Below, piece by piece: positions 1 to 44,473 of a stretch of 64,000 bases of DNA. Position 1 is the stretch's first letter, and every line of letters starts with the position of its first letter. The notes beneath the pieces are model-generated. The model was not told the origin of the DNA, did not search any database, and worked only from the letters and a program-made list of their open reading frames with translations. The stretch is from contig NW_027507034.1 of NCBI RefSeq assembly GCF_052324685.1, positions 1 through 64,000 of the forward strand, in the 5' to 3' direction. Position numbers and translations under genes: made by a program. The stretch comes from Brachyhypopomus gauderio (Eukaryota > Chordata > Actinopteri > Gymnotiformes > Hypopomidae).

Positions 1-3000
1 GTGGAGAGTGGGTGGTGTGTAGAGGGGAGAGTGGGTGGTGTGTAGAGGTGGAGAGTGGGTGGTGTGTAGAGGTGGAGAGTGGGTGGTGTGTAGAGGTGGA
101 GAGTGGGGTGGTGTGTAGAGGTGGAGAGTGGGTGGTGTGTAGAGGTGGAGAGTGGGTGGTGTGTAGAGGTGGAGAGTGGGTGGTGTGTAGAGGGGAGAGT
201 GGGTGGTGTGTAGAGGTGGAGAGTGGGTGGTGTGTAGAGGTGAGAGAGTGGGTGGTGTGTAGAGGTGGAGAGTGGGTGGTGTGTAGAGGTGGAGAGTGGG
301 TGGTGTGTAGAGGTGGAGAGTGGGTGGTGTGTAGAGGTGGAGAGTGGGTGGTGTGTAGAGGTGGAGAGTGGGTGGTGTGTAGAGGTGGAGAGTGGGTGGT
401 GTGTAGAGGGGAGAGTGGGTGGTGTGTAGAGGTGGAGAGTGGGTGGTGTGTAGAGGTGGAGTGGGTGGTGTGTAGAGGTGGAGAGTGGGTGGTGTGTAGA
501 GGGGAGAGTGGGTGGTGTGTAGAGGTGGAGAGTGGGTGGTGTGTAGAGGTGGAGAGTGGGTGGTGTGTAGAGGTGGAGAGTGGGTGGTGTGTAGAGGTGG
601 AGAGTGGGTGGTGTGTAGAGGTGGAGAGTGGGTGGTGTGTAGAGGTGGAGAGTGGGTGGTGTGTAGAGGGGGAGAGTGGGTGGTGTGTAGAGGTGGAGAG
701 TGGGTGGTGTGTAGAGGTGGAGAGTGGGTGGTGTGTAGAGGTGGAGAGTGGGTGGTGTGTAGAGGGAGAGTGTGTAGAGTGAGTGGGTGGTGTGTAGAGG
801 GGAGAGTGGGGTGGTGTGTAGAGGTGGAGAGTGGGTGGTGTGTAGAGGTGGAGAGTGGGTGGTGTGTAGAGGTGGAGAGTGGGTGGTGTGTAGAGGTGGA
901 GAGTGGGTGGTGTGTAGAGGTGGAGAGTGGGTGGTGGTAGAGGTGGAGAGTGGGTGGTGTAGAGGTGGAGAGTGGGTGGTGTGTAGAGGTGGAGAGTGGG
1001 TGGTGTGTAGAGGTGGAGAGTGGGTGGTGTGTAGAGGTGGGAGAGTGGGTGGTGTGTAGAGGGGGAGAGTGGGTGGTGTGTAGAGGGGGAGAGTGGGTGG
1101 TGTGTAGAGGGGGAGAGTGGGTGGTGTGTAGAGGGGGAGAGTGGGTGGTGTGTAGAGGTGGAGAGTGGGTGGTGTGTAGAGGTGGAGAGTGGGTGGTGTG
1201 TAGAGGGGGAGAGTGGGTGGTGTGTAGAGGTGGAGAGTGGGTGGTGTGTAGAGGTGGAGAGTGGGTGGTGTGTAGAGGGGAGAGTGGGTGGTGTGTAGAG
1301 GTGGAGAGTGTGTGGTGTGTACAGGTGGAGAGTGGGTGGTGTGTAGAAGGGGAGAGTGGGTGGTGTGTAGAGGTGGAGAGTGGGTGGTGTGTAGAGGTGG
1401 AGAGTGGGTGGTGTGTAGAGGTGGAGAGTGGGTGGTGTGTAGAGGTGGAGAGAGTGGGTGGTGTGTAGAGGTGGAGAGTGGGTGGTGTGTAGAGGTGGAG
1501 AGTGGGTGGTGTGTAGAGGTGGAGAGTGGGTGGTGTGTAGAGGTGGAGAGTGTGTGGTGTGTACAGGTGGAGAGTGGGTGGTGTGTAGAAGGGGAGAGTG
1601 GGTGGTGTGTAGAGGTGGAGAGTGGGTGGTGTGTAGAGGTGGAGAGTGGGTGGTGTGTAGAGGTGGAGAGTGGGTGGTGTGTAGAGGTGGAGAGAGTGGG
1701 TGGTGTGTAGAGGTGGAGAGTGGGTGGTGTGTAGAGGGGAGAGTGGGTGGTGTGTAGAGGTGGAGAGTGGGTGGTGTGTAGAGGTGGAGAGAGTGGGGGG
1801 TGTGTAGAGGTGGAGAGTGGGTGGTGTGTAGAGGGGAGAGTGGGTGGTGTGTAGAGGGGAGAGTGGGTGGTGTGTAGAGGTGGAGAGTGGGTGGTGTGTA
1901 GAGGTGGAGAGTGGGTGGTGTGTAGAGGATGAGTGGGTGGTGTGTAGAGGTGGAGAGTGGGTGGTGTGTAGAGGGGGAGAGTGGGTGGTGTGTAGAGGTG
2001 GAGAGTGGGTGGTGTGTAGAGGTGGAGAGTGGGTGGTGTGTAGAGGGGAGAGTGGGTGGTGTGTAGAGGGGAGAGTGGGTGGTGTGTAGAGGTGAGAGTG
2101 GGTGGTGTGTAGAGGGGAGAGTGGGTGGTGTGTAGAGGTGGAGAGTGGGTGGGTGTAGAGGTGGAGAGTGGGTGGTGTGTAGAGGGGAGAGTGGGTGGTG
2201 TGTAGAGGGGGAGAGTGGGTGGTGTGTAGAGGTGGAGAGTGGGTGGTGTGTAGAGGTGGAGAGTGGGTGGTGTGTAGAGGGGAGAGTGGGTGGTGTGTAG
2301 AGGTGGAGAGTGTGTGGTGTGTACAGGTGGAGAGTGGGTGGTGTGTAGAAGGGGAGAGTGGGTGGTGTGTAGAGGTGGAGAGTGGGTGGTGTGTAGAGGG
2401 GGAGTGGGGTGGTGTGTAGAGGTGGAGAGTGGGTGGTGTGTAGAGGTGGAGAGAGTGGGTGGTGTGTAGAGGTGGAGAGTGGGTGGTGTGTAGAGGTGGA
2501 GAGTGGGTGGTGTGTAGAGGTGGAGAGAGTGGGTGGTGTGTAGAGGTGGAGAGTGGGTGGTGTGTAGAGGGAGAGTGGGTGGTGTGTAGAGGTGGAGAGT
2601 GTGTGGTGTGTACAGGTGGAGAGTGGGTGGTGTGTAGAGGGGAGAGTGGGTGGTGTGTAGAGGTGGAGAGTGTGTGGTGTGTACAGGTGGAGAGTGGGTG
2701 GTGTGTAGAAGGGGAGAGTGGGTGGTGTGTAGAGGTGGAGAGAGTGGGTGGTGTGTAGAGGTGGAGAGTGGGTGGTGTGTAGAGGTGGAGAGTGGGTGGT
2801 GTGTAGAGGTGGAGAGAGTGGGTGGTGTGTAGAGGTGGAGAGTGGGTGGTGTGTAGAGGTGGAGAGTGGGTGGTGTGTAGAGGTGGAGAGAGTGGGTGGT
2901 GTGTAGAGGTGGAGAGTGGGTGGTGTGTAGAGGGGAGAGTGGGTGGTGTGTAGAGGTGGAGAGTGGGTGGTGTGTAGAGGTGGAGAGTGGGTGGTGTGTA

Positions 3001-5287
3001 GAGGTGGAGAGTGGGTGGTGTGTAGAGGTGATGAGTGGGTGGTGTGTAGAGGTGATGAGTGGGTGGTGTGTAGAGGGGAGAGTGGGTGGTGTGTAGAGGG
3101 GAGAGTGGGTGGTGTGTAGAGGGGGAGAGTGGGTGGTGTAGAGGTGGAGAGTGGGTGGTGTGTAGAGGGGAGAGTGGGTGGTGTGTAGGGGTGGAGAGTG
3201 GGTGGTGTGTAGAGGTGGAGAGTGGGTGGTGTGTAGAGGGGAGAGTGGGTGGTGTGTAGAGATGGAGAGTGGGTGGTGTGTAGAGGTGGAGAGTGGGTGG
3301 TGTGTAGAGGGGAGAGTGGGTGGTGTGTAGAGGTGGAGAGTGGGTGGTGTGTAGTGGGGGAGAGTGGGTGGTGTGTAGAGGTGGAGAGTGGGTGGTGTGT
3401 AGAGGTGGAGAGTGGGTGGTGTGTAGAGGGGGAGAGTGGGTGGTGTGTAGAGGTGGAGAGTGGGTGGTGTGTAGAGGGGAGAGTGGGTGGTGTGTAGAGG
3501 TGGAGAGTGGGTGGTGTGTAGAGGTGGAGAGTGGGTGGTGTGTAGAGGGGAGAGTGGGTGGTGTGTAGAGGGGGAGAGTGGGTGGTGTGTAGAGGTGGAG
3601 AGTGGGTGGTGTGTAGAGGTGGAGAGTGGGTGGTGTGTAGAGGTGGAGAGTGTGTGGTGTGTACAGGTGGAGAGTGGGTGGTGTGTAGAAGGGGAGAGTG
3701 GGTGGTGTGTAGAGGTGGAGAGTGGGTGGTGTGTAGAGGTGGAGAGTGGGTGGTGTGTAGAGGTGGAGAGTGGGTGGTGTGTAGAGGTGGAGAGAGTGGG
3801 TGGTGTGTAGAGGTGGAGAGTGGGTGGTGTGTAGAGGGGAGAGTGGGTGGTGTGTAGAGGTGGAGAGTGGGTGGTGTGTAGAGGTGGAGAGAGTGGGGGG
3901 TGTGTAGAGGTGGAGAGTGGGTGGTGTGTAGAGGGGAGAGTGGGTGGTGTGTAGAGGGGAGAGTGGGTGGTGTGTAGAGGTGGAGAGTGGGTGGTGTGTA
4001 GAGGTGGAGAGTGGGTGGTGTGTAGAGGGGAGAGTGGGTGGTGTGTAGAGGTGGAGAGTGGGTGGTGTGTAGAGGGGAGAGTGGGTGGTGTGTAGAGGTG
4101 GAGAGTGGGTGGTGTGTAGAGGGGGAGAGTGGGTGGTGTGTAGAGGTGGAGAGTGGGTGGTGTGTAGAGGTGGAGAGTGGGTGGTGTGTAGAGGGGAGAG
4201 TGGGTGGTGTGTAGAGGGGGAGAGTGGGTGGTGTGTAGAGGTGGAGAGTGGGTGGTGTGTAGAGGGGAGAGTGGGTGGTGTGTAGAGGTGGAGAGTGGGT
4301 GGTGTGTAGAGGTGGAGAGTGGGTGGTGTGTAGAGGGGGAGAGTGGGTGGTGTGTAGAGGTGGAGAGTGGGTGGTGTGTAGAGGTGGAGAGTGGGTGGTG
4401 TGTAGAGGGGAGAGTGGGTGGTGTGTAGAGGGGGAGAGTGGGTGGTGTAGAGGTGGAGAGTGGGTGGTGTGTAGAGGTGGAGAGTGGGTGGTGTAGAGGT
4501 GGAGAGTGGGTGGTGTGTAGAGGTGGAGAGTGGGTGGTGTGTAGAGGGGAGAGTGGGTGGTGTGTAGAGGGGGAGAGTGGGTGGTGTGTAGAGGTGGAGA
4601 GTGGGTGGTGTAGAGGTGGAGAGTGGGTGGTGTGTAGAGGTGGAGAGTGGGTGGTGTAGAGGTGGAGAGTGGGTGGTGTGTAGAGGTGGAGAGTGGGTGG
4701 TGTGTAGAGGTGGAGAGTGGGTGGTGTAGAGGTGGAGAGTGGGTGGTGTGTAGAGGTGGAGAGTGGGTGGTGTGTAGAGGGGGAGTGGGTGGTGTGTAGA
4801 GGGGAGAGTGGGTGGTGTGTAGAGGTGGAGAGTGGGTGGTGTGTAGAGGTGGAGAGTGGGTGGTGTGTAGAGGGGAGAGTGGGTGGTGTGTAGAGGGGAG
4901 AGTGGGTGGTGTGTAGAGGTGGAGAGTGGGTGGTGTAGAGGTGGAGAGTGGGTGGTGTGTAGAGGTGGAGAGTGGGTGGTGTGTAGAGGGGAGAGTGGGT
5001 GGTGTGTAGAGGTGGAGAGTGGGTGGTGTAGAGGTGGAGAGTGGGTGGTGTAGAGGTGGAGAGTGGGTGGTGTGTAGAGGGGGAGAGTGGGTGGTGTGTA
5101 GAGGTGGAGAGTGGGTGGTGTGTAGAGGGGGGAGTGGGTGGTGTGTAGAGGGGGGAGTGGGTGGTGTGTAGAGGGGGGAGTGGGTGGTGTGTAGAGGGGG
5201 AGAGTGGGTGGTGTGTAGAGGGGGAGAGTGGGTGGTGTAGAGGTGGAGAGTGGGTGGTGTGTAGAGGTGGAGAGTGGGTGGTGTAGA
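1..5287. repeat. 24-bp G-rich minisatellite array
   Basis: More than 200 head-to-tail copies of a unit of about 24 bp (core GTGGAGAGTGGGTGGTGTGT plus AGAG), with 22-, 23- and 26-bp variants. The array runs off the left edge. The unit is a multiple of 3 and lacks stops in some frames, so long artificial reading frames arise; no protein is implied. Variant units (GTGTGTGG, TACAGG, AGAAGG) mark higher-order blocks. One block of about 450 bp at 1480-1928 reappears 2,100 bp later at 3580-4028, and a 240-bp block near 1285-1470 recurs at 1525-1710. The right edge (GTGGTGTAGATCTCCTC) is identical to the edge of the smaller array at 23063-23663. The array therefore lies in the intron between exon 5 and the B30.2 exon of a TRIM gene. 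Confidence 0.97.
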
Positions 5288-8812: not shown

Positions 8813-9958
8813 GGGACCTGTTGAACCGGAAGAGTGGAGATTTGAACATATATTTTTTTCAGAAACTCAGTACCAGGTTTAATCACTTTATCTGCGTGAC
8901 ATCTATGTACATAGGCAAAGCATTTCTTCATTGCAAAGCATTCTATCATTATCAACAGTATCAGCATGTGTTAGCGAAAGCATTTCTTCATTGTGTAACC
9001 CAGTTGACAAATGCATAATAAAAAGGTACAATAAATAGTAATAATAGATAAAAGTAATAATAATAGATAAAAAGCATAAATAGTAAAATGGGATAATAAA
9101 TAGTGATAATTCTGATTAAACAATTCATGAATGATGTGTTGTTATTGTTGAACAAAATTGCATGTGTTTGGTGTGGCGGTGCTCGTGGCAGTGCAGTTGC
9201 GATTGGTGCTTTTTGTTTTGGCATGCTGTTTCGCTGGCTTTCGGGTTGGCGAGCCGTTGGCGAGAGCTGGAGAGTTGGAGTTGGAGACTCCATTTTCCTC
9301 GGAGTTAGAAGAGATTTAAAGAGTGTTTTTAAGTTACTGTGACGTTTGGGTTCATTTTTGGAGTACTGGGCGAACAGCTTTGTAAACGCTGTCTGTTTTG
9401 AAGACCAGAAGTTTCGTTCGTCAAGTATTTCTTCGTTGAATTGTCTCGGTAAGGCAGCTCGTTTATTTTTCGTTACTGTTGTAATCCAAGTCATATTTTG
9501 TTTATCATTGTTAAATACTTCAGTGAAACCTAAGAATTGTATTTTGTTTGTTAATACTTTTTGTGTTAAATGTGGAAGGGTATATTTTAGTTGAAATGAT
9601 TAAGTTTAAAGCTAGGAATGAGTTGACTGTTTCACATGCTGTGATCACGCACCTAGCACGTGTAACGTGAGAAGGCTAAACGTGTCCTCACGATAACCAT
9701 TGTACTCTGTAATGTTTATGCATAATCGCAAGGTTACCGCGATTTCACTGTACAATGTTGTTTATTTTATAGTATTCGTCCTGTTTACTTGATAAATGGT
9801 CATTTAACTGAATAGTATGCAATGCTTTTCAGTATGAACGAAGTGTATGCAGTTGCATAGCTTTTCTTTTGAGAAGATTTATATTAATGTTGTACAACTA
9901 TTTTAAGTTTAAACTGTTGATATTTGATCAGAATTTAACATTGTCCTGTATGTGTAGC
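8813..9958. other. non-coding stretch, possibly LTR or leader of the retroviral remnant
   Basis: No convincing gene. The open frame on the minus strand (8988-9494) is AT-rich and has no recognisable motif. The segment contains TAATAG-rich low complexity (9015-9100) and a GC-richer part (9160-9300) with two GGCGAG motifs that resembles a retroelement leader. Assignment to the neighbouring retroviral remnant is a guess based on position. Confidence 0.3.
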
Positions 9959-9962
9959 TTAA

Positions 9963-10212
9963 CAATCCGTGTATCATTCGTTCATTTGATATTCAACTGA
10001 AAATCAAAATCGGAAAAACAAAAAAACAGTTCATTATTTTGTTTTTCGTTTTGAATATAAAAACAAAAAAACAAATCAGGCTTGTATTTTTATGTTTTTT
10101 ATCTGATGGTCCAAACAAAAATAGCACAATTAAAAAAACGGGTTCGGAGCCGGAGCCGAACTTGATTTTGATTTTTTTATCTTGACCCATTTGTGTGCGC
10201 CGGAAGTTACTG
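9963..10212 (+). repeat. left terminal inverted repeat
   Basis: Pairs with 17049-17293 on the opposite strand. The outer part reads AATCCGTGTATCATTCG, then (after a short indel) TATTCAACTGAAAATC. An A/T-rich middle follows, then a GC-rich inner part (GAGCCGGAGCCGAAC, and GTGCGCCGGAAGTTACTG). The start codon of the RING gene lies 35 bp inside the inner border, so the TIR probably contains that gene's promoter. Confidence 0.9.
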
Positions 10213-10246
10213 CAACTGGAGCTCGCGGGTTTTGGATGGAGTTAAG

Positions 10247-13200
10247 ATGGATAGTTTTATTTTGTTCAGAGGAACTAAACGCGTTACCGTTAAAGAAGAA
10301 GATATGACAACCGAAAAAATCGGCAGGATCTTTCAGGTGTTGTATTTTGTGTAACGTTCCATAGCTAAATGTCACATTTAGTTAACGTTACTCTGTAAAG
10401 TGCCGCGAATGTACGTTTTTTATATAGGTAGCCGGCTAGTTAGCTGGCTAGTCTAGATATGGTTTGGTGAACTTCTCTCACTGTTCACATTTGAAAAGGT
10501 ACACGGTCCCAGTGTCTATATCACCGATGACAGCAACGTAGCTGTATTTCCTGGAAGTGATGGCCACTTTAGCTCTATAGAGCTAACAGCAAGGGGGCAT
10601 TACGAGGTACATGGCGAGAGTATCAGCATGGAACCGTCAACTAGTGTGCCAGTATCGCACGATTCTACCCGATTTTCCTTCCACCGCCCACCCAGCGCTG
10701 CTGCGGCTTCTGCAACAAGAGCTTCTGCAAGTCCAAGACCTACCCTGGCAAAAACCTTTCAAAGGTATACAAATAAACTTTTCATTCGTCTTACGTTTAT
10801 ACACACCAACATACTCACTTGTTATATTTCCTTTGTAATATGAACCGATATATAACTCTATTAAAGATGTAAGGTCTACATAATGTAAAATGAGTTTTAA
10901 AGTTTTTTTCATTTCAATTTTCAGGAACATCTTCATCGCTGAGCTTGTGGATTGCAAGTTGGAAACAAGCAGGACGCTAACTGTGCGTTTTTCTGAATTT
11001 GAAGCTACTGTTTCGGGAATCACCAGTAAGGTCACTGATGCCCTTGAACAAGATGACTCATTCATCCTCACTGATGGTCAAGGAAACAAAATCCTGGATT
11101 CTGAAGGAACCAGAGGTATAGTTAAACAGGTTGTTTATAGCAAGGTTCTTCAAATCTTGTCCTGGGGGGCTGTGTCCAGCAGTGTCAAACACCTAGTTAA
11201 CTTGCCCATTAACAGATGAATTGAACCAGATGTATTAAGCAGGAAAATCCCAAAACTGCTACACATGGTTCCATGACAAATATTTAACAACGGTTTATTT
11301 GATTGCCTCAGAATTACTACATAAATTGTGCTCACACATTTGCATGATGCATACCCATCTTTACAGTATGTTTTCTTGTTCAAATGTTCAAATAAACATA
11401 TTTTCTACAGAGACCCTGTATACTTTTAATGTAACATTACTGCTTATTAACAGAATGTAACATATGGGAAGCAAATAAAACATAGTATTAATGTTCCATA
11501 TCCTTTTTACACTTTAGAAAGAGTTTTTTTTTTCTCCCAACATGTTAAATTCAGTAAATAAATATAGATTTAGCTTAAACTCATGAGTTGCAAAATTTGA
11601 CTCTTTTCAATTCAGGATCAGCATTTTGGAAGCAAAGTGCAAGGAAAATATTTGCTGTGAAGGAAGAAGACTTACTGCAGTTACAAGCAAGTAAGAAGAG
11701 AAGACTGAGGTACAATATTATCTTTTAACTTCAGGAAATACATATCTAGATGTATATTGTTCTATGTAAAGACTGGCTGTGACCAAAATGGGTCCTTATT
11801 ATGTTTTAGGGCACTATTGAGTATGTCAGAGTTTACGAATCAAAAAGTGTAATTGGAATGTGATTTTGAGGACATGAGTGACTCCCACAATGCATCATGA
11901 TTTATAGTAAATATTGTAGCATACTACATCTGCTAAACTTTTCCCAAAAGTTCAGCAACAAACAGCAGAGCAAACAGATCGAACAGCAAAACCTCCAGTG
12001 TTGCCAAATTTATTACACTGGTGTTCAGGTAAAACGCATTTAAAATCTTCCAAAATACAAAGAAAACTGTCCAGAAACAAAACAGCAGATGTTCTGCACA
12101 TCAGCAATATTACAGAATTTATTCCAACATGGCCTTAAAATGACATTATTTTATCTTAAGGATGTATAGAGCAGAATTACAAAAAAGGGACATTTATTAA
12201 AGGACAAATAATTTAACTGCATATCAGTATTATTTTTGTGCTTAATGCACTTTGATTTGACACATGACCCTATATGCAAACAGCAGGACTAACTATGTCT
12301 CTGCCAGGTCAGCTATCTAGAACATGGATTAATCAAATTTGCCACACCACTTTTAACACAGCATGTTGAGGGAATAGGGATCAATTTTGGTCACAGCCAA
12401 AGACAAGAGATGCACATTGATTTACAACTTTAATTTCTTTGTATGTGTTATGCCATGAATATGAGTGCCCTTTTTAGGAAGATACTATGAGTTATGAAGA
12501 CTACATTTACTTATGGACTTAGATTTAGATTAATGTACCAATCAAAAATAGCACATTAGATGCCTTGGATCAATGGAAGTAACAACAGATAATTGTGTGT
12601 ATACAAATGTCTGGATTCAAAATGGTAATTTGATAATTTGGTTGTATATTATGCTTGTTTTTAAGTCGTCGAGACGATACCGGCCTTGATTGTGTTTTCG
12701 AACACATCGAAGAGGTGGTGCTTGCAGCTCAGGGTCTTAAAGGAGTCTCCAGTGCAATAAAGGAACTGCAAGTGTTGGCAAATTCCAACTGGAGAACAGA
12801 CGTGTGTCTGACACAGGCCCAAGCAGCAGCAGTTAGAGATGCCTTTGCATGTGTCATCTGCAGAAGTAATTTGTTTTATATTTTTTTCCTTTGAAAATCT
12901 GTGTTGCTTGTAACTCAGTTTTATCCCCCTTAACACCCCAAAGCCTAAGTATGAATTAAAGTTAATAAAAGCGCAGTGCTGTTCAGTGGGTAATCTGACA
13001 GTTTAGCTTATGTAATATGCTGCAATAATTTACTATAGATCATGAATCATTGTGGCAGTAAATCATGCACGCAAAATCACTTTCCATTTACTTTACAATT
13101 TGGACACTCAAAGAAAAATGGCTGACATACTAAATAGTGCCCTAAAACATAAATGGGTAATGAGTAAAAAAAATTACTTTACAATGACTTATTTAGCAGT

Positions 13201-13586
13201 GATTGAGTTTTTAAGGATGAAAAGGTCCCCAGGTCAGCTAATCTAAACAACCACAGATGTACATAGAGTAAATAAACTGCTGTTGCTATTGACATGCCTC
13301 TGTCTACTTGTACTGATATCATGCAGCTAAGTTTGGTCTTTACTGATGTCCATTATTACTGTGGTTTATAAAACTCTTCTGAATTGGATTTGCAGGTGTC
13401 ATGGCAGATCCCATCGTCTCATCATGCTGCCAAAGCCTTATTGGTTGCAGGATCTGCATTGAGGAGTGGCAGATAACTTCTGCCACTTGCCCAAAGTGTC
13501 GCGCTGATGACTTCAGTGTAAACACACACAGACTCAATGGCCTGTCTGAAGCTTTGGATACGCTACGAAACATACTCGGAGGCTAA
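10247..13586 (+). CDS. transposon-borne protein with C-terminal RING-like zinc domain, six exons
   Basis: Exons: 10247-10336, 10499-10764, 10925-11115, 11616-11709, 12666-12865, 13396-13586. All introns are GT/AG, the phases join without a break, and the sum is 1,032 nt (343 aa plus stop). The N-terminal 190 residues hold no motif I recognise; residues about 65-120 are Ser/Ala/Pro-rich. A basic KKRR patch (about residue 210) could be a nuclear signal. The C-terminal part reads CVIC, then SSCC, GCRIC and CPKC, spaced like a RING or U-box-like zinc fold of E3 ubiquitin ligases. The AATAAA at about 13901 fits as a poly(A) signal. Role inferred: an accessory or regulatory E3-like protein of the transposon. 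An alternative is a captured host gene. Confidence 0.8.
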
Positions 13587-14085
13587 TACTCTGCACAGTA
13601 TGTGCACATTTGCATAATTGTTAATTTGCTAATTTGCTTAAATTTGTTTCATTGCATAACGTGCAGTCGGTTGTTAAAGCACCTTTTGATGTGTTTATTT
13701 TTTAAATATGGTGTTAGATTGACTTTGTATAATACTCAGGGTTCAAGGCTGTGCAATCTTTATTTTGTTTACTCAGGGTTCAATGCTTTGAAAATTTACA
13801 AGCAAAATGTGCGACTTTATGCAATGTTTTTTTCAGAATGTAGCATTAAAATAACAGTTTGGAACACTGATACAATACTTGTGCTTTTGACATTTTAAAG
13901 CAATAAAAGTTTTTGTCAAGTTATTAAACAGACTGTTTAAGATCAATATACAGGGTGAGTCAAAGGTCGCAGGACACCCTTTTGACAGAAGTCAGCGATA
14001 ATGAAAATGAGAATACTCCAGCAGGTATTCAGGCTGAGTGGTTCTTTTAGGCTACTCCTTTATACACACAAAGTTGTTGTTTTTC

Positions 14086-16918
14086 TCAGGCATATCTTTG
14101 GGATACATTCAAGAGGTGCAACACGGCATCCTGGAAGGGAGTATAGTCATTGTTTACTACATGATTAAGAAGAAGAGAGATGTCAGGGTAATTCTCTGCA
14201 AAGTCCAGTTCTGCGCGACACCTATCTTCCTCAGATGAAAATGGGTCATTTCCAAAAACAGGCACCCTAGTCAGCGAGGAACCAAACTCTTGTTCATACA
14301 TGCTTGCGACAACATTCGAGGTGGGGAGCAACTCTGGAGAAATTTTAGCTGGACAGCCATCTGCAGCAAGTTCATTGGGTATCCCACGAACTAAAAATAA
14401 GAAAATGTATTAACAAATAATGCATCAATCAATGCTGTTTATGTTGTACAGTTATGCTAATAAGTTTGCAATGGCCAGGGGGTAGTAAGCAAGCAAACAG
14501 TGTGTTTTTTTTTTTTGACAAGCCAGGCTAAGTTTGCCCAAATGTGGTACCATGAAAGAAAGTTTACACTTATATACATTTGGACTTGCTCCATACCTGG
14601 AAACATTTAGTCTTGGCTCATTCACTACTATTGGACAAACCATATGATGTCATAGGCATACTCTTTGGCTAATGTAAGGGAGGCTTACTCAAATAAGTGT
14701 GCCTTTTATAAGCTTGCTTTGTGGAATAGCCTTTAGGTCAAATTACATATTTTGTTGAATTTCTAAGTAGAAGTAAGTTTATCAATGTATCTACTTTATC
14801 ATTGTTGGAGCATATTGTTTAGCATACCTGGGATTCTGTGTGCATTCCATGACTGCACCACTCTGCATAATCCAATTTGGCTTACTTGGCATGTCAGGTT
14901 TGAAATGCAGAATTTAGTTACACTGTCTTCCATACTGATGACTTCTTGGTCCAGCATGTGTACCAGGGCCTGTTTCAGTGGATAGTTCACTCGACAGTTA
15001 ACTTCAGGCCATAGCCTTTCCACTCGAAGATTCTATTAATGACAAACATACAAATACCACAGTTACTGTTTAAATGCTTTCAGTTCTTATTCTAAGGAAA
15101 AACATTGTCAGAATCAGTCTGTCATTTTTGATTATATCAGTTATACTGTTGGTCAGTAGCACAAAACCTTTACCCTTGATGATGTTGTTTGGAGATATGG
15201 TGGCCTGCTGAGGTTGTGTCTGTGTCCTGACAGCATTTCTTGCATGTACAGGCACATGAAGAACTCCCTGCCATGATCAACTCTGAGCTGATCCCACATC
15301 CCGTACTTGACAACTGCAGATCTAAAGTAAAATAATGTGCATATGGTTGCACTGAACTGATTAAGTAAGGAAGATGTGTTGAAATCAATTAACCAATTAT
15401 GAGAATAACACTGGGTGTGATTGGATTCACCTGTAAACTTCCTCATAAATCACAAGGTTGTTTTTCACTGGCATGGTGGCATTACCAACAATTTTGCTGC
15501 TGTAGCCATCAACTGCCAAAACATGTGTCACTCCAAACATTACAAGCTTCTCATTTTGATCAAGGTGAAGTTTGTGACCCATATACTCAGCGTGATAAGG
15601 AACTGGATTTAGGTTACGAGCACCCTAAAGAAAATGTAAATATTATGATTAATGCAGGCTCCCATTTTTGTCACACTACACCACAATATTCACATAACAT
15701 TTTTAAAACAAGGGAATTATGATGTTCAACCCCAATTTTGTTGAATGAAAGGTAAATAAATGTAAAAAAAAAAAAAAACAACGAAAAAAATGATTCACAT
15801 CTCATAGATGTACTCACAATAAAACATGTTAGGTGTGTGTTCTATTAGTACCATTAACTTTTCCAGCCTTCAGTTCTCCCATCCCAAATTCTTTAATTTA
15901 CATTTTACACAGGGGTTTAATTGGGGTTGTTCACCAGTGGTTCCCAAGTTTTCCTTATGTCAGAGCATAACACCATATTATCAGAATACTGTACTTTTTG
16001 GCCCTCAAAACATAAAAAAGATTTATCAGAGGTTATTTTCTTAAGGGGCAGGGTTAGCCCAAGATGAAAGGAACAAGTGAATCTTGAAAAATATATTGTC
16101 ACACAGTGTTTGTATGACATTTAAAACAACTACGCTGCAGACACAACGGAGTACAGGTGAACAAATGTTTGTGAACAGAGGTGGAGAATTAAAGTAAACA
16201 GCACGAGAAGAGGAGAAAACTAGAGTGAATCCAGGAGAGGAGACACTACACATGCCTCATCAATTTAAAGCGAAGCGCCCCAAGTATCAGTACAAAACCA
16301 CATGGCTAATTTGCATAGACATGACAGCTGAATCAATGCAGAAGCTGACATTCGCACGTCTTAGTAATCAAGACACAAAAGTAATCTACTTTTACTGTAA
16401 CTAACAGAATTCAGTGACTTCTTATATGTAATCCGATAATATTCAGAGTCAATATACTTACTATACTGAGTTCCTAGCATAGGCTAAAACTAGCTACCTG
16501 ACGTCGTAGTTCATGGTATGGCTGATGAATCTCTCTTAGGATTTTTCCAACTCGACATTCTCCTGCACGCACCCCCATTGATGACAGATAGCCGGTCATG
16601 AACTTGCGGCCATAGGATGGACCAGTCTGTTAAGAAAAATTTAGATTTCACCAAGGTTTTTGAGAGAAAGGCAGGACATAAGGTGAAAGCCTAAATGAAA
16701 CGCACCTCATATATTGATCCAAGTACGGCCCTCCCCAATTCTGTGTCCGATACATGCCTTTTTCGTTTAAGGTCGTGTTCAACACAGAATCTTCTAACGC
16801 TCATTGCAGAACATCGCTGGATACCCATTTGCTGCAACGTGCACGAAATTTCTGCATGCGTCTGACCACTTTCAAATAAATCTTTAATTAATCTAGAATG
16901 TGGTTCCAGTCCGGTCAT
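14086..16918 (-). CDS. integrase-type DDE transposase, six exons
   Basis: Exons on the minus strand: 16918-16706, 16626-16498, 15624-15431, 15321-15174, 15032-14828, 14390-14086. All junctions are GT/AG, phases match, and the sum is 1,194 nt (397 aa plus stop). An in-frame ATG at 17017 would add 33 residues and lies only 32 nt inside the right TIR; the chosen ATG begins [10 protein letters not shown]. The N-terminal part looks like a helix-turn-helix (SVRRFC region). The retroviral-type core (rve) follows, with the first Asp in HLDQNEK, the second in RVDHGREF and the Glu in the VERLWPE region, giving about D-x38-E across an exon border. [10 protein letters not shown] and SWNAHRIP are further family motifs. 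It should cut and join the element's ends in the nucleus. No stop or frameshift was found. Confidence 0.85.
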
Positions 16919-17048
16919 GTTGTCTATACCAATATAGACAATGTCGAGGCTACAATCAGAACAAGTAACACTGTACAAGTAGTAGACCAAGTTACACTGC
17001 AGTGCACTCCCGCGCAAACAAAGCCCGCGAAGAATAAAATAAACAAAT

Positions 17049-17293
17049 CAGTAACTTCCGGCGCACACAAATGGGTCAAGTTAAAAAAATCAAAATCAAG
17101 TTCGGCTCCGGCTCCGAACCTGTTTTTTTTAATTGTGCTATTTTTGTTTGGACCATCAGATAAAAAACATAAAAATACAAGCCTAATTTGTTTTTTTGTT
17201 TTTATATTCAAAACGAAAAACAAAATAATGAACTGTTTTTTTGTTTTTCCGATTTTGATTTTCAGTTGAATATACCGAATGATACACGGATTC
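17049..17293 (-). repeat. right terminal inverted repeat
   Basis: Reverse complement of 9963-10212 with few differences: the left copy has about 7 extra bases after CATTCG, and the outermost base differs. The transposase gene starts just inside it. Its outer edge is followed by TTAA. Confidence 0.9.
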
Positions 17294-17297
17294 TTAA

Positions 17298-18450
17298 CTA
17301 AGGGTATGGTTACACAGGTCAAGTTTTGAGCTGGAGTTGGATTCCGCTGAGGATTTGTGGACTACGTTTGATGGCGAGCCACCAACCCATTCGAGCGTGA
17401 TCCGGTTCTGTCATTGCATATGGCATATCTGGTAGGATTGTGGCCTGCTTGTGTCACATTACTGACTGACTGACTTGACTTATTGACTTGAATCGACACT
17501 TACCAACTGAACCATTGGAGAAGAACTATTTTCTTTTTTTTTTTACAACAACTGAAAGGAACTCTCTTTTGTCCATTTGGAGAATTTAAAGGACTATTTC
17601 CCAATTTTTGAAGGACAATTCATTTTCAGTTAATTTTCTTTAAAAAAAGGGGTCCAATCTTTTATTTGGGTAATTGTAAATGTTTCCAACTTTTCAAATA
17701 ATTACTAAAGAAAGGAAAAAAACTTATACCCTCGTGTGGTGTCTTTTAATTGCACTGTTTTCCACTCTCTCTCCAGAGCCTAGTGTCTCTTATTCTTTAG
17801 TATTATTTTAATATTATTGAACCTGGCCTACCATTGACGTGTACATACTCAGTAGTGGGTTACAATTGCAAAGCATGGGAACTTTTCTGAAAATAGATGA
17901 GGACTCAGACGTGGTTAAAATGATTAATTTATTAAAATATATAAAATGGACAAAGACAAACACAAGACAGAGACAGACATGAGAGTCTCATTCAAGCATG
18001 ACAACTCTGAAGACAGGGGGGCAGTCCCCCTGCTTATATACAATCTTAAACACAATTCAGCAGTTCTAACAGCAGGTTATCTTTAGCACAGCATGTTCCA
18101 AAACATAGGCTCCCAGCAGGCTACTTTGTCTCACATGTGTGTATCTCCTAATATGGACTTCCCTAGAGTTAGCGGAAGCAACTGATGTATCAGTTGAACG
18201 CAGAGAAAGCTAACTAGTGACTAGTGACTACCAGTTAACAGAGTGCTCTTACCCTCTGCACTCTCCCTGATCTGGGTCACAGTATAGCACACATGCATAC
18301 TATGAACTAAACACAAGTACATGATTACACTGAAACACACCATTATTGTCTAATCAAATGACATGTACTAAATCATAAAGTTCATAATGATCTCTTATAA
18401 CAACTAAACATGATCTAATCAATAATTTCTGTCACACTGACAATACTTCT
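17298..18450. other. no gene seen; LTR-like stretch on minus strand
   Basis: 17300-17880 is AT-rich with oligo-T/A runs and no coding signal; it contains TGGCGAGCCACCA at about 17371. 17880-18450, read on the minus strand, starts TGTCAAGAAGTATTG and holds an AATAAA, as an LTR would. No partner LTR or coding part is visible, and comparison with 56490-56520 shows that sequence homologous to the 18455 region continues there without this stretch. It may be a solo LTR. Confidence 0.3.
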
Positions 18451-21441: not shown

Positions 21442-35220
<13,779 letters not shown>

Positions 35221-35760: not shown

Positions 35761-38700
35761 GGAGACCAATAGTTCCAAACATGCTATAGTTCCAGCATTG
35801 AACTGCGTATATTTGAAGCATTTCTGCGGCTGTTTTTTTGGTAAGTTAATGAATTATTCATCGTTTCCTATATAATCCTCCATAAATGTGATTAGTATTA
35901 CTGTTATAGTTAAGTGGTCACTTGTTAGTTTATTTCTGCATTTTAGATACCTTTAGTAAATAATTTTAGTAAAATACTGTGCTCTTCTTCAGGGCTCTCG
36001 TTACTGTGCTTAATTGCAATTTGACATTCATTACAAATTTTGGAATATTTGATTACTTGATTCACAATGTAGCCTGTCAGATGATAGAGAGCACAGGTCT
36101 CCATTTTTGTGTAGTCAGGTGAGGGTGTAGTCACAGGGTTGTGCTCCAACAGGTCATCCACTCTGATGCCAGGACTGGGAAATTCCTCTTTAGCATCCAG
36201 GAAGTCTGCCAATAGGCTACTTTCATCCTCCTGATAGCTTCCTGATTTTAGTGTAATAAGAAACTGTCCAACTGATATTGATCTTAGTGCCTGGTGAAAC
36301 TCTACAGGAGTTGGGACTGGATTCCTCTGTCTTATGCAGCTAAACAGGTTTTCAAGACAGTCTTGTGTAAACCTGCTTGTCAACACAAAAAAGTGTCCCT
36401 GGGCCAGCATGTCTTCTTGGATTGACAATATTGTGGATGTTGCCATAATCGTTTGCACAGGTTTCCAGCTACCCTGTCGACCGATCTTCAGACCACGAAA
36501 CAACTGGATCATTTGCTGAAGGAACATGATTGATTTATGATATTGATGGTTATTATGCCTGCTCAGTGCCATTACTGGGTGGCGAGAAGACATGATGTCA
36601 AACCAGTGGTTCACCTGCTCCAGGAACCATGCTGTTGTCAGGTAAGAGTCAGGTCATTGTTCTTGCTCCACCATGTATTTCAGCCCGGCACTTGTTGCTT
36701 TGCTAAAGACATTTAATGCAGGGCCTACCTTCATCTTGTCAAAATGACTGGGGTGAAGGGTTTTATGGGACACATTTGGAGCAATTTTTTGTGTCATCCC
36801 CTCTTGAAAAGCCACCAAATCTTGCAACGGGCCAATCAAAGCTTCACAGGAAGAGAGCTTCTCCCTCTCCACTATATCTGGAGGAATTGTAAACGTCTGT
36901 CCACGGACAAGGGCACTTCTCAAGTTCTTAACTAGATGTGGGACATCTGGCATAAAGTATAGCCTTCTGTCTGGTTTTGCTGGATCTGGAATAGATGTTT
37001 TATTATGGTCCACTCCGAAAGCCTTCCACATTGCCCGATTAGGGCTGCCCATGTCAGTGGTGATATTAATAACATGTAGGCCTATGGAGTCTGCTCTGTG
37101 AATAATGTCTAAAATGAGTGGTTTATAAACTGCCCCATCAGTGGAGTTACCACTGTAGTGGTAAGCCACTACTTGTTTCCAGCGTGTTGTGCTCCCTGTC
37201 AACATAAAAACACATGCATGCGTTGCTTCTCCTGTGTGGCCAGGTAAAAGTCACATCCCCATAAAGCTTTCCTGTTCCCAGGTGCAGTTCCACGCTTGGT
37301 GTGATTGACATCTCATCAAGAGTCAGCACACATTCCTTCTCCATCTCATTTAGGCTATCTACCTTCAGCTTAAGCATGTCAAACACTTCCCCCAATATTC
37401 CTGGTTCCATCTTTATAAACTGTAGTCTTCTTTGCAGGGTACTAATGTCAGGGAGAGGAATCTTCATGTCCTGCAGGAGCTTGTAGCCTGTTGAGCCTGT
37501 AGCAAAATGGAGTTTTATGGCCTTTTTAATGATGTCATTTCCTCATCTGATGCCCCTCTTGCTCTTCATTCCAATTGCATTCATCTGAGTTTTAGAAAAA
37601 ACTGCTCCACATTTCTTTTCCCTAACTAAATTTTTTCTCCGTAGGACTGCATTTATTCTTTTTTGTCGTTTAAGGGCTGCTTCTAAACATTTTATTTGTG
37701 TATTTAGGTTCTCCCTCAGGTCTTTCTCACTTGCCCCTGGCTCACTTGGATGCTGCACACTCGTACTTGGCTCACTGCTTTCTGGTATACCTCTCTCAGT
37801 CTCCTCACAGCCTCCACCTTCCCTTATTTCACTTCCCTCACTTTCCCTTCTCTGTCTTTCCTCATTTCCTTCAGTAATATCTGAAATTATTGCATGGCAT
37901 TGTTAGGTTTAAAAAACGGGGTTAGCTATTGAAATACAAATTAACTTTATTATAATCATATGAATTATTATTTAAAATCATTCATACCAAATTTTATTTT
38001 AGGACAATATGTGTGGTCACTCGTCACTGCAAGAGAAATGACAGGAGATTTTGGGGTTCTCAGAGCAGGGGCCTTCCTTTTCTTAGGCTCAGGACGATGG
38101 ATAAATATGGTTGGAACAGCATCAGCTTTCAATTTCACTTGGCCTGTTTTGGTTGTCGTGAATTGTTCTCCCTCAAAGTGTGCCTGCAGAATGAGTTTAA
38201 ATTCCTCACAGAATCTCAGACCACATATCATATCTTTATTTGAAGTCAGGTACGTAATGCAACACAAAAATGAAACAATAAATCATGATCTGCACATATG
38301 GTGTATGAACAGAACTTACTGCACATAGTTTTCTGCTTCTACTGATTTGGGCCAACCACTTTTTTCTTCTGTAGGTATCTTTTGGAAACCCATACATCCG
38401 GATCCCTTTCTCGGACCCATTGGTACATCCAAATGCTGCACAGCCAACCATGTTCAATAAGAAATCAATCTGTAGAAGTTTGATGGGAAACGAAAATGTT
38501 TAATTAATTTATGTATTTAATGATGTTATTTTAGTGTTGTAATGTGGCTAATGAATTAATTTATGTATTTAATGATGTTATTTTAGTGTTGTAGTGTAGA
38601 CTACAGAATAAATCTATGTTAAATGTGTTTTTAGTGTTGTTTTGTGGACTAAATAAATCTATGCCTGAACCTTTAATAGTGCAGGCTGCTTCAACAGGCT

Positions 38701-42990: not shown

Positions 42991-44473
42991 TCATTCATAA
43001 TGATGACACTTTGTGAACAGGACTGGAGAGAGGATGGTCCCCTGTGGTGCTCCTGTGTTGCTGGTCACTGTATCAGAGGAGCCGTCCCTGATCCTGACAT
43101 GTCGTGGTCTCCCTGTAAGGTAGTCAGTAATCCAGGTGACCAGGTGCATGTCCACCTCCATCTCCATCAGCTTGTCCCTCAGCAGTAGGGGCTGGATGGT
43201 GTTAAAGGCGCTGGAGAAGTCAAAGAACATGACCCTCACAGCACCGCTCCCCTTGTCCAGGTGAGAGTGAGCTCTGTGCAGGAGATGGAGGATGGCGTCC
43301 TCCACCCCCACCTTCTCCCGGTAGCCAAACTGCAGTGGGTCCTCAGCCTGGTGGACCTGAGGTCTGAGGTGACACAGCAGCAGTCGCTCCATGGTCTTCA
43401 TCACGTGGGATGTCAGAGCAACTGGCCTGTAGTCATTCAGCTCCTTCGGGTGTGCCTTCTTGGGAACTGGAATGAGGCAAGTTGTCTTCCACGTGTCAGG
43501 AACCTTCCTTAAGCGTAGACTCAGGTTGAAGACATGTTGAAGCAGCAAACCCAGTTGGACAGCACACGCCGTGAGCAGGACAGTCAAACCTGTTGTAGAA
43601 GTTGTTAAACTGGTTTTCTCTGTCCACACCCCCATCCACTGAGCTGCTGCTATTGTTCTTGCACCCTGTGATGGTTTTCATCGCACCCCAGACCTCCTTC
43701 ATGTTGTTGTCCTGCAGCGTTCTCTCCACCTTTATCCTGTAGGACTCTTTGGCCTCTTTTAGACGAACCTTGAGTTTCCCCAGTACACGCTTCAGCTCCA
43801 CCAAGTTTCCATCTTTGAACACCCTCTTCTTCTGATTGAGGAGGTCCTTGATGTTGCTGGTGATCCAGGGTTTATTATTAGGGAAGCAGCGTACAGTCCT
43901 TGTGGGAACAGCTACGTCCATACAGAAGTTCAAGTAGTCCGTAACGCAGTGTCACTCCCTCAATGTCCTCACAGTGTGGATGCAGCAGCACGATCCAATC
44001 AGTGGTCTTGAAGCAGTCCATGAGGGCTTCTTCTGCTTCAGGAGACCAAACTCTGAATGAGCGAGAGGTAGAAGGCTGTCTCAGTACCAGTGGTTTGTAC
44101 TGAGGCTGTAGGAAAACCATCAGATTGTGATCTGATTTCCCCTGTGGTGGTAGTGGGGTGGCCCTGTATGTGTCAATAGTCCTGTTTTTCCTGGTGGGAC
44201 AGTCCACAAACTGGAAAAAGGCAGGCAGGGTGTGAGTCCAGTGTGACGTGATTAAAGTCACTAGCAATCAGATAGAAGGTGTCAGGGTGCTGTGTCTGTA
44301 GTGCTGTGTCTGTAGTGCTGTGTTTGTAGTGCTGTGTCTGTAGTGCTGTGTCTGTAGTGCTGTGTTTGTAGCGCTGCGACAGTGTAGTGGATGACGTCAC
44401 ACGCTGCCTGCGCGTCCGCCCAGGGTGGAATGTAAACACACACGAAGATGGCATATTCCTCGCTGCACTCCAT
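42991..44473 (-). pseudogene. L2/CR1/Rex1-type LINE, truncated in reverse transcriptase
   Basis: On the minus strand the order is an endonuclease part (VYIPPWADA, KSDHNLMVFLQ), a linker, then reverse transcriptase with ELNDYRPVALTS, FDFSSAFNTIQP (motif A) and GAPQGTILSPVLFT (motif B). The sequence ends before the FADD catalytic motif. Frames shift near 43600, 43900 and 44200. The endonuclease part contains an expanded 14-bp tandem repeat (TGCTGTGTCTGTAG, about 6 copies, 44287-44372). Such elements move by target-primed reverse transcription; this copy is dead. Confidence 0.85.

Follow-up and report, generated by a model that had tools for sequence, protein, structure and literature searches.

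A stretch of 7,329 nt in the genome of Brachyhypopomus gauderio, at positions 9964-17292 of the 64,000-nt segment that we analysed (the window), is an apparently intact DNA transposon with two genes. One gene (INT) encodes an integrase-type transposase and the other (RING) a protein with a RING domain. We interpret the element as an autonomous integrase-type teleost DNA transposon that is live, or was so very recently, and in which the second gene encodes an E3 ubiquitin ligase dedicated to the element; we put the probability of this reading at about 0.72. Direct observation covers the structure of the element, its 6-bp target-site duplications (TSDs), the open genes in two near-identical copies and the convergent gene pairs across divergent families. 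The recurrence of the INT-RING pair in other fish, as seen in sequence records, suggests that the ligase may help the transposon to survive or to move.

The element is bounded by long terminal inverted repeats (TIRs) and a short duplication of the target:

9958-9963, no strand: target-site duplication, left, CTTAAC, 6 bp
9964-10212, plus strand: terminal inverted repeat, left, 249 nt, 5' start AATCCGTGTATC
17049-17292, minus strand: terminal inverted repeat, right, 244 nt, terminating in CACGGATT
17293-17298, no strand: target-site duplication, right, CTTAAC

Two stretches pair without gaps, one of 150 nt at 99% complementarity and one of 81 nt at 98%; the repeats as a whole agree at 95.3% over 255 columns, with indels of 6 nt and 1 nt. 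The long TIRs described in the first-pass annotation are thus borne out, at about 245 nt each. Its proposal of TTAA as the target site is not: the flanking TTAA is the middle of CTTAAC, and the duplication is 6 bp long and variable. Exact 6-bp TSDs flank 34 copies (the window element, plus 33 found at 32 of the 40 loci that we fetched), no two of them alike, which rules out targeting of TTAA in the manner of piggyBac. The 40 loci were chosen because their TIR matches scored best or came in pairs, so the sample is biased towards intact ends; eight lacked an exact 6-bp TSD, and three of these eight (L023, L024 and L048) showed one end only in the stretch. The target flanks have an apparent, weak two-sided preference. 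Throughout the assembly searched (796.5 Mb, 840 contigs), the terminal 20-mer with at most one mismatch occurs 107 + 107 times and its reversed control not at all.

Between the TIRs, the two genes converge:

10247-10336, plus strand: RING exon 1, ATG at 10247
10499-10764, plus strand: RING exon 2
10925-11115, plus strand: RING exon 3, bulk of the predicted ubiquitin-like part (residues 116-208, extending into exon 4)
11616-11709, plus strand: RING exon 4
11774-12399, no strand: possible nested small element inside RING intron 4, with 27-nt inverted ends, 89% complementary
12666-12865, plus strand: RING exon 5, predicted long helix (220-254) and RING cysteines 1-2
13396-13586, plus strand: RING exon 6, the other six RING cysteines and the stop
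13759-13764, minus strand: candidate polyadenylation signal AATAAA of the INT gene, with a second at 13694-13699
13902-13907, plus strand: candidate polyadenylation signal AATAAA of the RING gene
14086-14390, minus strand: INT exon 6 and the stop
14828-15032, minus strand: INT exon 5, carrying E233
15174-15321, minus strand: INT exon 4, carrying D194
15431-15624, minus strand: INT exon 3, carrying D136 of the DDE triad
16498-16626, minus strand: INT exon 2
16706-16918, minus strand: INT exon 1, ATG at 16918, N-terminal helical region

The RING gene comprises 1,032 nt in six exons (90, 266, 191, 94, 200 and 191 nt) and encodes 343 aa; the INT gene comprises 1,194 nt, also in six exons (213, 129, 194, 148, 205 and 305 nt), and encodes 397 aa. 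We re-derived both models, with GT-AG at 10 of 10 introns and no internal stops, and so recovered the two convergent, lesion-free six-exon genes first proposed. The earlier descriptions of their products, one as like a retroviral integrase and the other as RING-like, also find support below. From the candidate polyadenylation signals, the predicted 3' ends of the two genes overlap. Intron 5 of the RING gene holds an inverted piece (13000-13152) related to the possible nested element, at 78% over 153 nt, and matches to these nested pieces are also present in L009, L049 and L052.

INT is an integrase-fold transposase that matches the Pfam family rva_4 and has the triad D136, D194, E233. Among 49 of its relatives, the IS3 model was matched by 41 and the IS481 model by 12 at E up to 1, a level at which an unrelated lipoprotein model also matched 10 of the 49; for the one INT member displayed, the IS3 and IS481 scores lie far under the curated cut-offs. 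HTH_21 was matched by 33 of the 49, and the integrase-zinc (HHCC) family was absent among the 20 Pfam families matched. A sequence search of the PDB with INT alone gave no match, and one with the INT profile gave TRAF6 matches only, none significant. Of 86 positions that hardly vary among its relatives, INT differs at three (E62G, L201M and G297V), and does so in both full-length copies.

The product of the second gene is 100% identical to B. gauderio LOC143502797 isoform X1 (P0121). Predicted ubiquitin-like parts make up its N-terminal region, and the RING domain lies behind them. The putative zinc ligands are eight cysteines with RING-like spacing, conserved in nearly all alignment rows that cover them. 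The RING profile matches PCGF5, TRIM37 and RBBP6 best, with the best-scoring stretch confined to the RING and its edges, and it matches RAG1 at E 0.0032; the predicted structure has a RING fold, and the window protein itself scores under the curated Pfam cut-offs. In a viral structure library, two matches had E <0.001, both to Pandoravirus proteins at large rmsd, and many of the remaining matches were RING, U-box or ubiquitin-like. Profile and predicted fold together make the protein a probable, still putative, ubiquitin ligase; it could also be a scaffold lacking E3 activity. RBBP6, UHRF1, TRIM37 and PCGF proteins provide the best RING profile and fold matches, and RBBP6 and UHRF1 each combine a ubiquitin-like domain with a RING. 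All of these are host proteins, unlike the transposon-borne protein described here.

That the RING gene belongs to the element, as the first-pass annotation held, is evident from its other copies, the very comparison that the annotation had named as able to refute it. A six-frame search of the whole genome returned 71 RING and 117 INT matches. INT clusters were built from matches over core residues 113-397 at 40% identity or more, leaving out matches to the N-terminal exons and six matches of about 25% identity. There are at least 21 RING and at least 24 INT clusters, which are lower bounds because the searches score best candidates only. Eighteen of the 21 RING clusters are paired with INT, 188-3,274 nt apart, and 18 of 18 pairs are convergent, in families whose RING proteins are just 40-50% or so alike. 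One unpaired RING locus (L049, C23:2.486 Mb) has four exons and, directly before exon 2, 78 nt of the terminus of the window element, and we therefore read it as a deletion derivative; the other two are small, one consisting of a single exon (C26) and one of 27 residues (C2). INT is unpaired in five fragments of one or two pieces each and in a five-piece locus at C5:19.90 Mb, where no RING was found within the 7.6 kb fetched. On account of these loci, RING may be dispensable in some lineages.

Divergent families share the architecture. On C33, L050 measures 7,053 nt, with the TSD AGGGTG and TIRs of about 274 nt; on C1, L053, judged by eye, has the TSD CTTATA and the ends GGTCCGTGTACG, with an inverted match of only 63-68 nt. 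Near their ends, both have TCCGTGTA in common with the window family. For L051 on C17, which has both genes, a stretch of 8 kb showed no TIRs.

Full-length copies with both genes number at least two, given a genome search that scores best candidates. The second (L009, on C7) is 99.86% identical to the window element over 7.3 kb and has a different TSD; both of its genes are open, its INT is identical and its RING protein has one amino-acid change. The original view of an apparently intact two-gene transposon is thereby strengthened. A non-autonomous form of exactly 2,604 nt is present in 15 copies, each with a TSD of its own; identity among them is 99.96-100%, and 91 of 105 pairs show no difference at all. 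Two of them (L014 and L019) retain, relative to the window element, about 460-490 nt of the INT side and a TIR at the opposite end. Given such near-identity at different sites, we conclude that the family moved very recently. As the TIRs of the 2,604-nt copies are just 92% or so like those of the window element, another autonomous relative may drive them. Between close copies, dN/dS is 0.47 and 0.58 for RING and 0.35 for INT, values that come from 3 to 13 changes and are no evidence of selection. A further copy on C7 (L029, 713753-721281) spans 7,529 nt between exact ATAATC TSDs, and its sole gene match is a piece of INT exon 1. At L013, one copy directly abuts the inner edge of the TIR of another, and L021 has two left ends with 305 nt between them; these arrangements suggest self-targeting or a local hot spot.

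The TIRs may also serve expression. Each holds, at its inner end, a motif that we take to be ETS-like:

10200-10206, plus strand: CCGGAAG at the inner end of the left TIR, 40 nt upstream of the RING ATG
17055-17061, minus strand: CCGGAAG (CTTCCGG on the plus strand) at the inner end of the right TIR, 136 nt upstream of the INT ATG

The motif occurs twice in the element, once per TIR, and twice in the remaining 56.7 kb of the window. In the otherwise dissimilar family of L050, one TIR has CCGGAAG and the other a one-base variant in the equivalent place. It is plausible, as the first-pass annotation suggested, that the TIRs act as paired promoters, one per gene.

Relatives of both proteins are found well beyond B. 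gauderio. At E up to 0.001, INT has 344 protein relatives; among the best 120 of these, those that are named come from teleosts and the brachiopod Lingula, and none is identical to the 397-aa protein of the window. The closest, at 93%, is from Astyanax, which belongs to another order; identity is 86% to Esox and 56-60% to three other B. gauderio INT proteins, a pattern that is no more than suggestive of horizontal transfer. The RING protein has 54 relatives in the database, all named as fish, against 344 for INT, and a profile search adds three more ids; 54 is an undercount, as the list has a single B. gauderio RING protein. Neighbouring locus tags place INT beside RING in Oryzias javanicus, Mugilogobius chulae (twice), Merluccius polli and Onychostoma macrolepis. 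Over 12 pairs (the window, ten INT-RING pairs matched by an equal length of their longest contig, and Astyanax, whose INT and RING records lie on contigs slightly unequal in length, 133,971,750 and 134,019,835, that we treated as one chromosome), INT and RING distances correlate with r 0.63. The value is 0.80 (1 of 20,000) without Melanotaenia, a non-adjacent pair and an outlier, and 0.69 (172 of 5,000) for the six adjacent-tag or window pairs. One 598-aa model, P0023 from Alosa pseudoharengus, fuses INT with a segment which, judged by eye, is similar to RING-protein residues 120-215; given this composition, the second gene may differ in a sister lineage.

By analogy with its family, INT would use the helical (HTH) region at its N-terminus to bind the long TIRs. 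Its D,D,E active site would then cut and join the ends, with insertion at a 6-bp stagger, and INT may also mobilize the non-autonomous copies. The inner ends of the TIRs would drive one gene each. More speculatively, the RING protein, which has predicted ubiquitin-like parts at its N-terminus, could ubiquitylate one of two targets: a host restraint, such as a factor of chromatin or silencing, or the complex of transposase and DNA. Either would favour transposition or its completion. We regard a host-directed role as somewhat more likely than one directed at the complex.

The nearest competitor is that the RING protein regulates its own element, ubiquitylating the transposase or strand-transfer complex and thereby limiting copy number or handing over to repair. 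This overlaps one branch of the preferred explanation, so the odds of the two overlap as well, and we hold it to be a serious possibility, short of an even chance. The co-variation of RING and INT distances and the convergence of 18 of 18 pairs are consistent with it, as are the profile match to RAG1 and the fact that RAG1, itself derived from a transposase, has a RING with ubiquitin ligase activity (PMC4411706). Co-variation is, however, expected for any two genes that travel together, and contact between the proteins is conjecture. A captured gene with no role in transposition is a good deal less probable. Some INT loci lack RING, and tblastn found RING pieces in none of the 39 loci L010-L048, which are mostly non-autonomous copies. 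Yet RING is open in both full-length copies, and it retains its cysteines and adjoins INT in other teleosts and across families whose likeness is only about 40-50%; a neutral passenger would not keep them beside INT across families.

An ordinary host gene beside or inside the insertion by chance would account for the introns and for the public gene model. We consider this scarcely credible: two copies, inserted at separate sites and flanked by unlike 6-bp TSDs, both have the gene between their TIRs, and the 18 of 21 pairing and the terminus remnant at L049, the lone multi-exon locus without INT, contradict it. The element could also be a relic that looks intact and is silent or defective beyond what its sequence reveals; just two full-length copies with both genes were found, and INT has the three unusual residues noted above. 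Against this, copies at distinct sites are nearly identical, and we think a dead element unlikely, if less so than a captured gene without function.

Among known systems, the transposase resembles IS3/IS481 types in sequence and is closest in kind to IS3EU and GingerRoot, with which it shares an IS3/IS481-related DDE transposase without an HHCC zinc domain, TIRs and 6-bp TSDs. According to Kojima and Bao (2023, PMC10045372), IS3EU TSDs are usually 6 bp and the termini of complete elements always TA..TA; GingerRoot has 6-bp TSDs and termini mostly TA..TA, occasionally TG..CA. Here, the ends read AATCCGTG..CACGGATT or GGTCCGTG.. rather than TA..TA; the termini are AA..TT in the window family and GG..CC in two divergent families. 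The element works like an IS3EU; because the TA..TA termini are missing, even with the 6-bp TSD present, we do not file it as one. Its second gene, a RING protein, also sets it apart from IS3EU and GingerRoot as described in print. Other reports give accessory genes for fungal IS3EU (alpha-kinase, TET/JBP; PMC12730594) and 17,838 copies of IS3EU for zebrafish (PMC4746887). Ginger1 and retroviral integrases share the integrase-fold catalytic core; no HHCC zinc family is among the 20 Pfam families that the 49 INT relatives matched, and the TSD of our element is 6 bp rather than the 4 bp given for Ginger1 (PMC10045372). Chapaev, Transib and RAG1 also link a RING to a transposase, and the RAG1 RING has ubiquitin ligase activity according to Kapitonov and Koonin (2015, PMC4411706). 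In these the RING lies within the transposase polypeptide; our element encodes its RING in a gene apart from, and convergent with, that of its integrase-like transposase.

We found no description of the INT-RING gene pair among the open-access papers that our literature searches listed; Repbase may hold an entry. As far as those searches show, no earlier cut-and-paste element may be on record in which an E3 gene stands alone and is conserved alongside the transposase. Taken jointly, these elements may form a lineage of vertebrate DNA transposons that is distinct, active today and equipped with a ubiquitin ligase of its own, made up of ubiquitin-like domains and a RING, and the ligase would disarm host silencing or drive turnover of the transpososome. 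We advance this joint reading tentatively, judging it rather more apt to fail than to hold. With near-identical copies at different sites, an apparently intact transposase and a conserved ligase gene, the element offers a directly testable case of a ubiquitin-manipulating eukaryotic transposon, and it might be developed into a new vector for gene transfer in fish.

Elsewhere in the window, a 24-nt minisatellite, GTGGAGAGTGGGTGGTGTGTAGAG, fills positions 1-5284 with about 222 copies and near-total G/C strand asymmetry, and a second array of it lies 18 kb from the first, at 23068-23663. An open, retroelement-like frame of 1,500 aa (25922-30424, plus strand) looks BEL/Pao-like by eye and is followed by a further frame at 30688-31323. 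Two fragments on the minus strand, also judged by eye, resemble a P-element/THAP9-type transposase (35943-36653) and a LINE reverse transcriptase (42991-43677).
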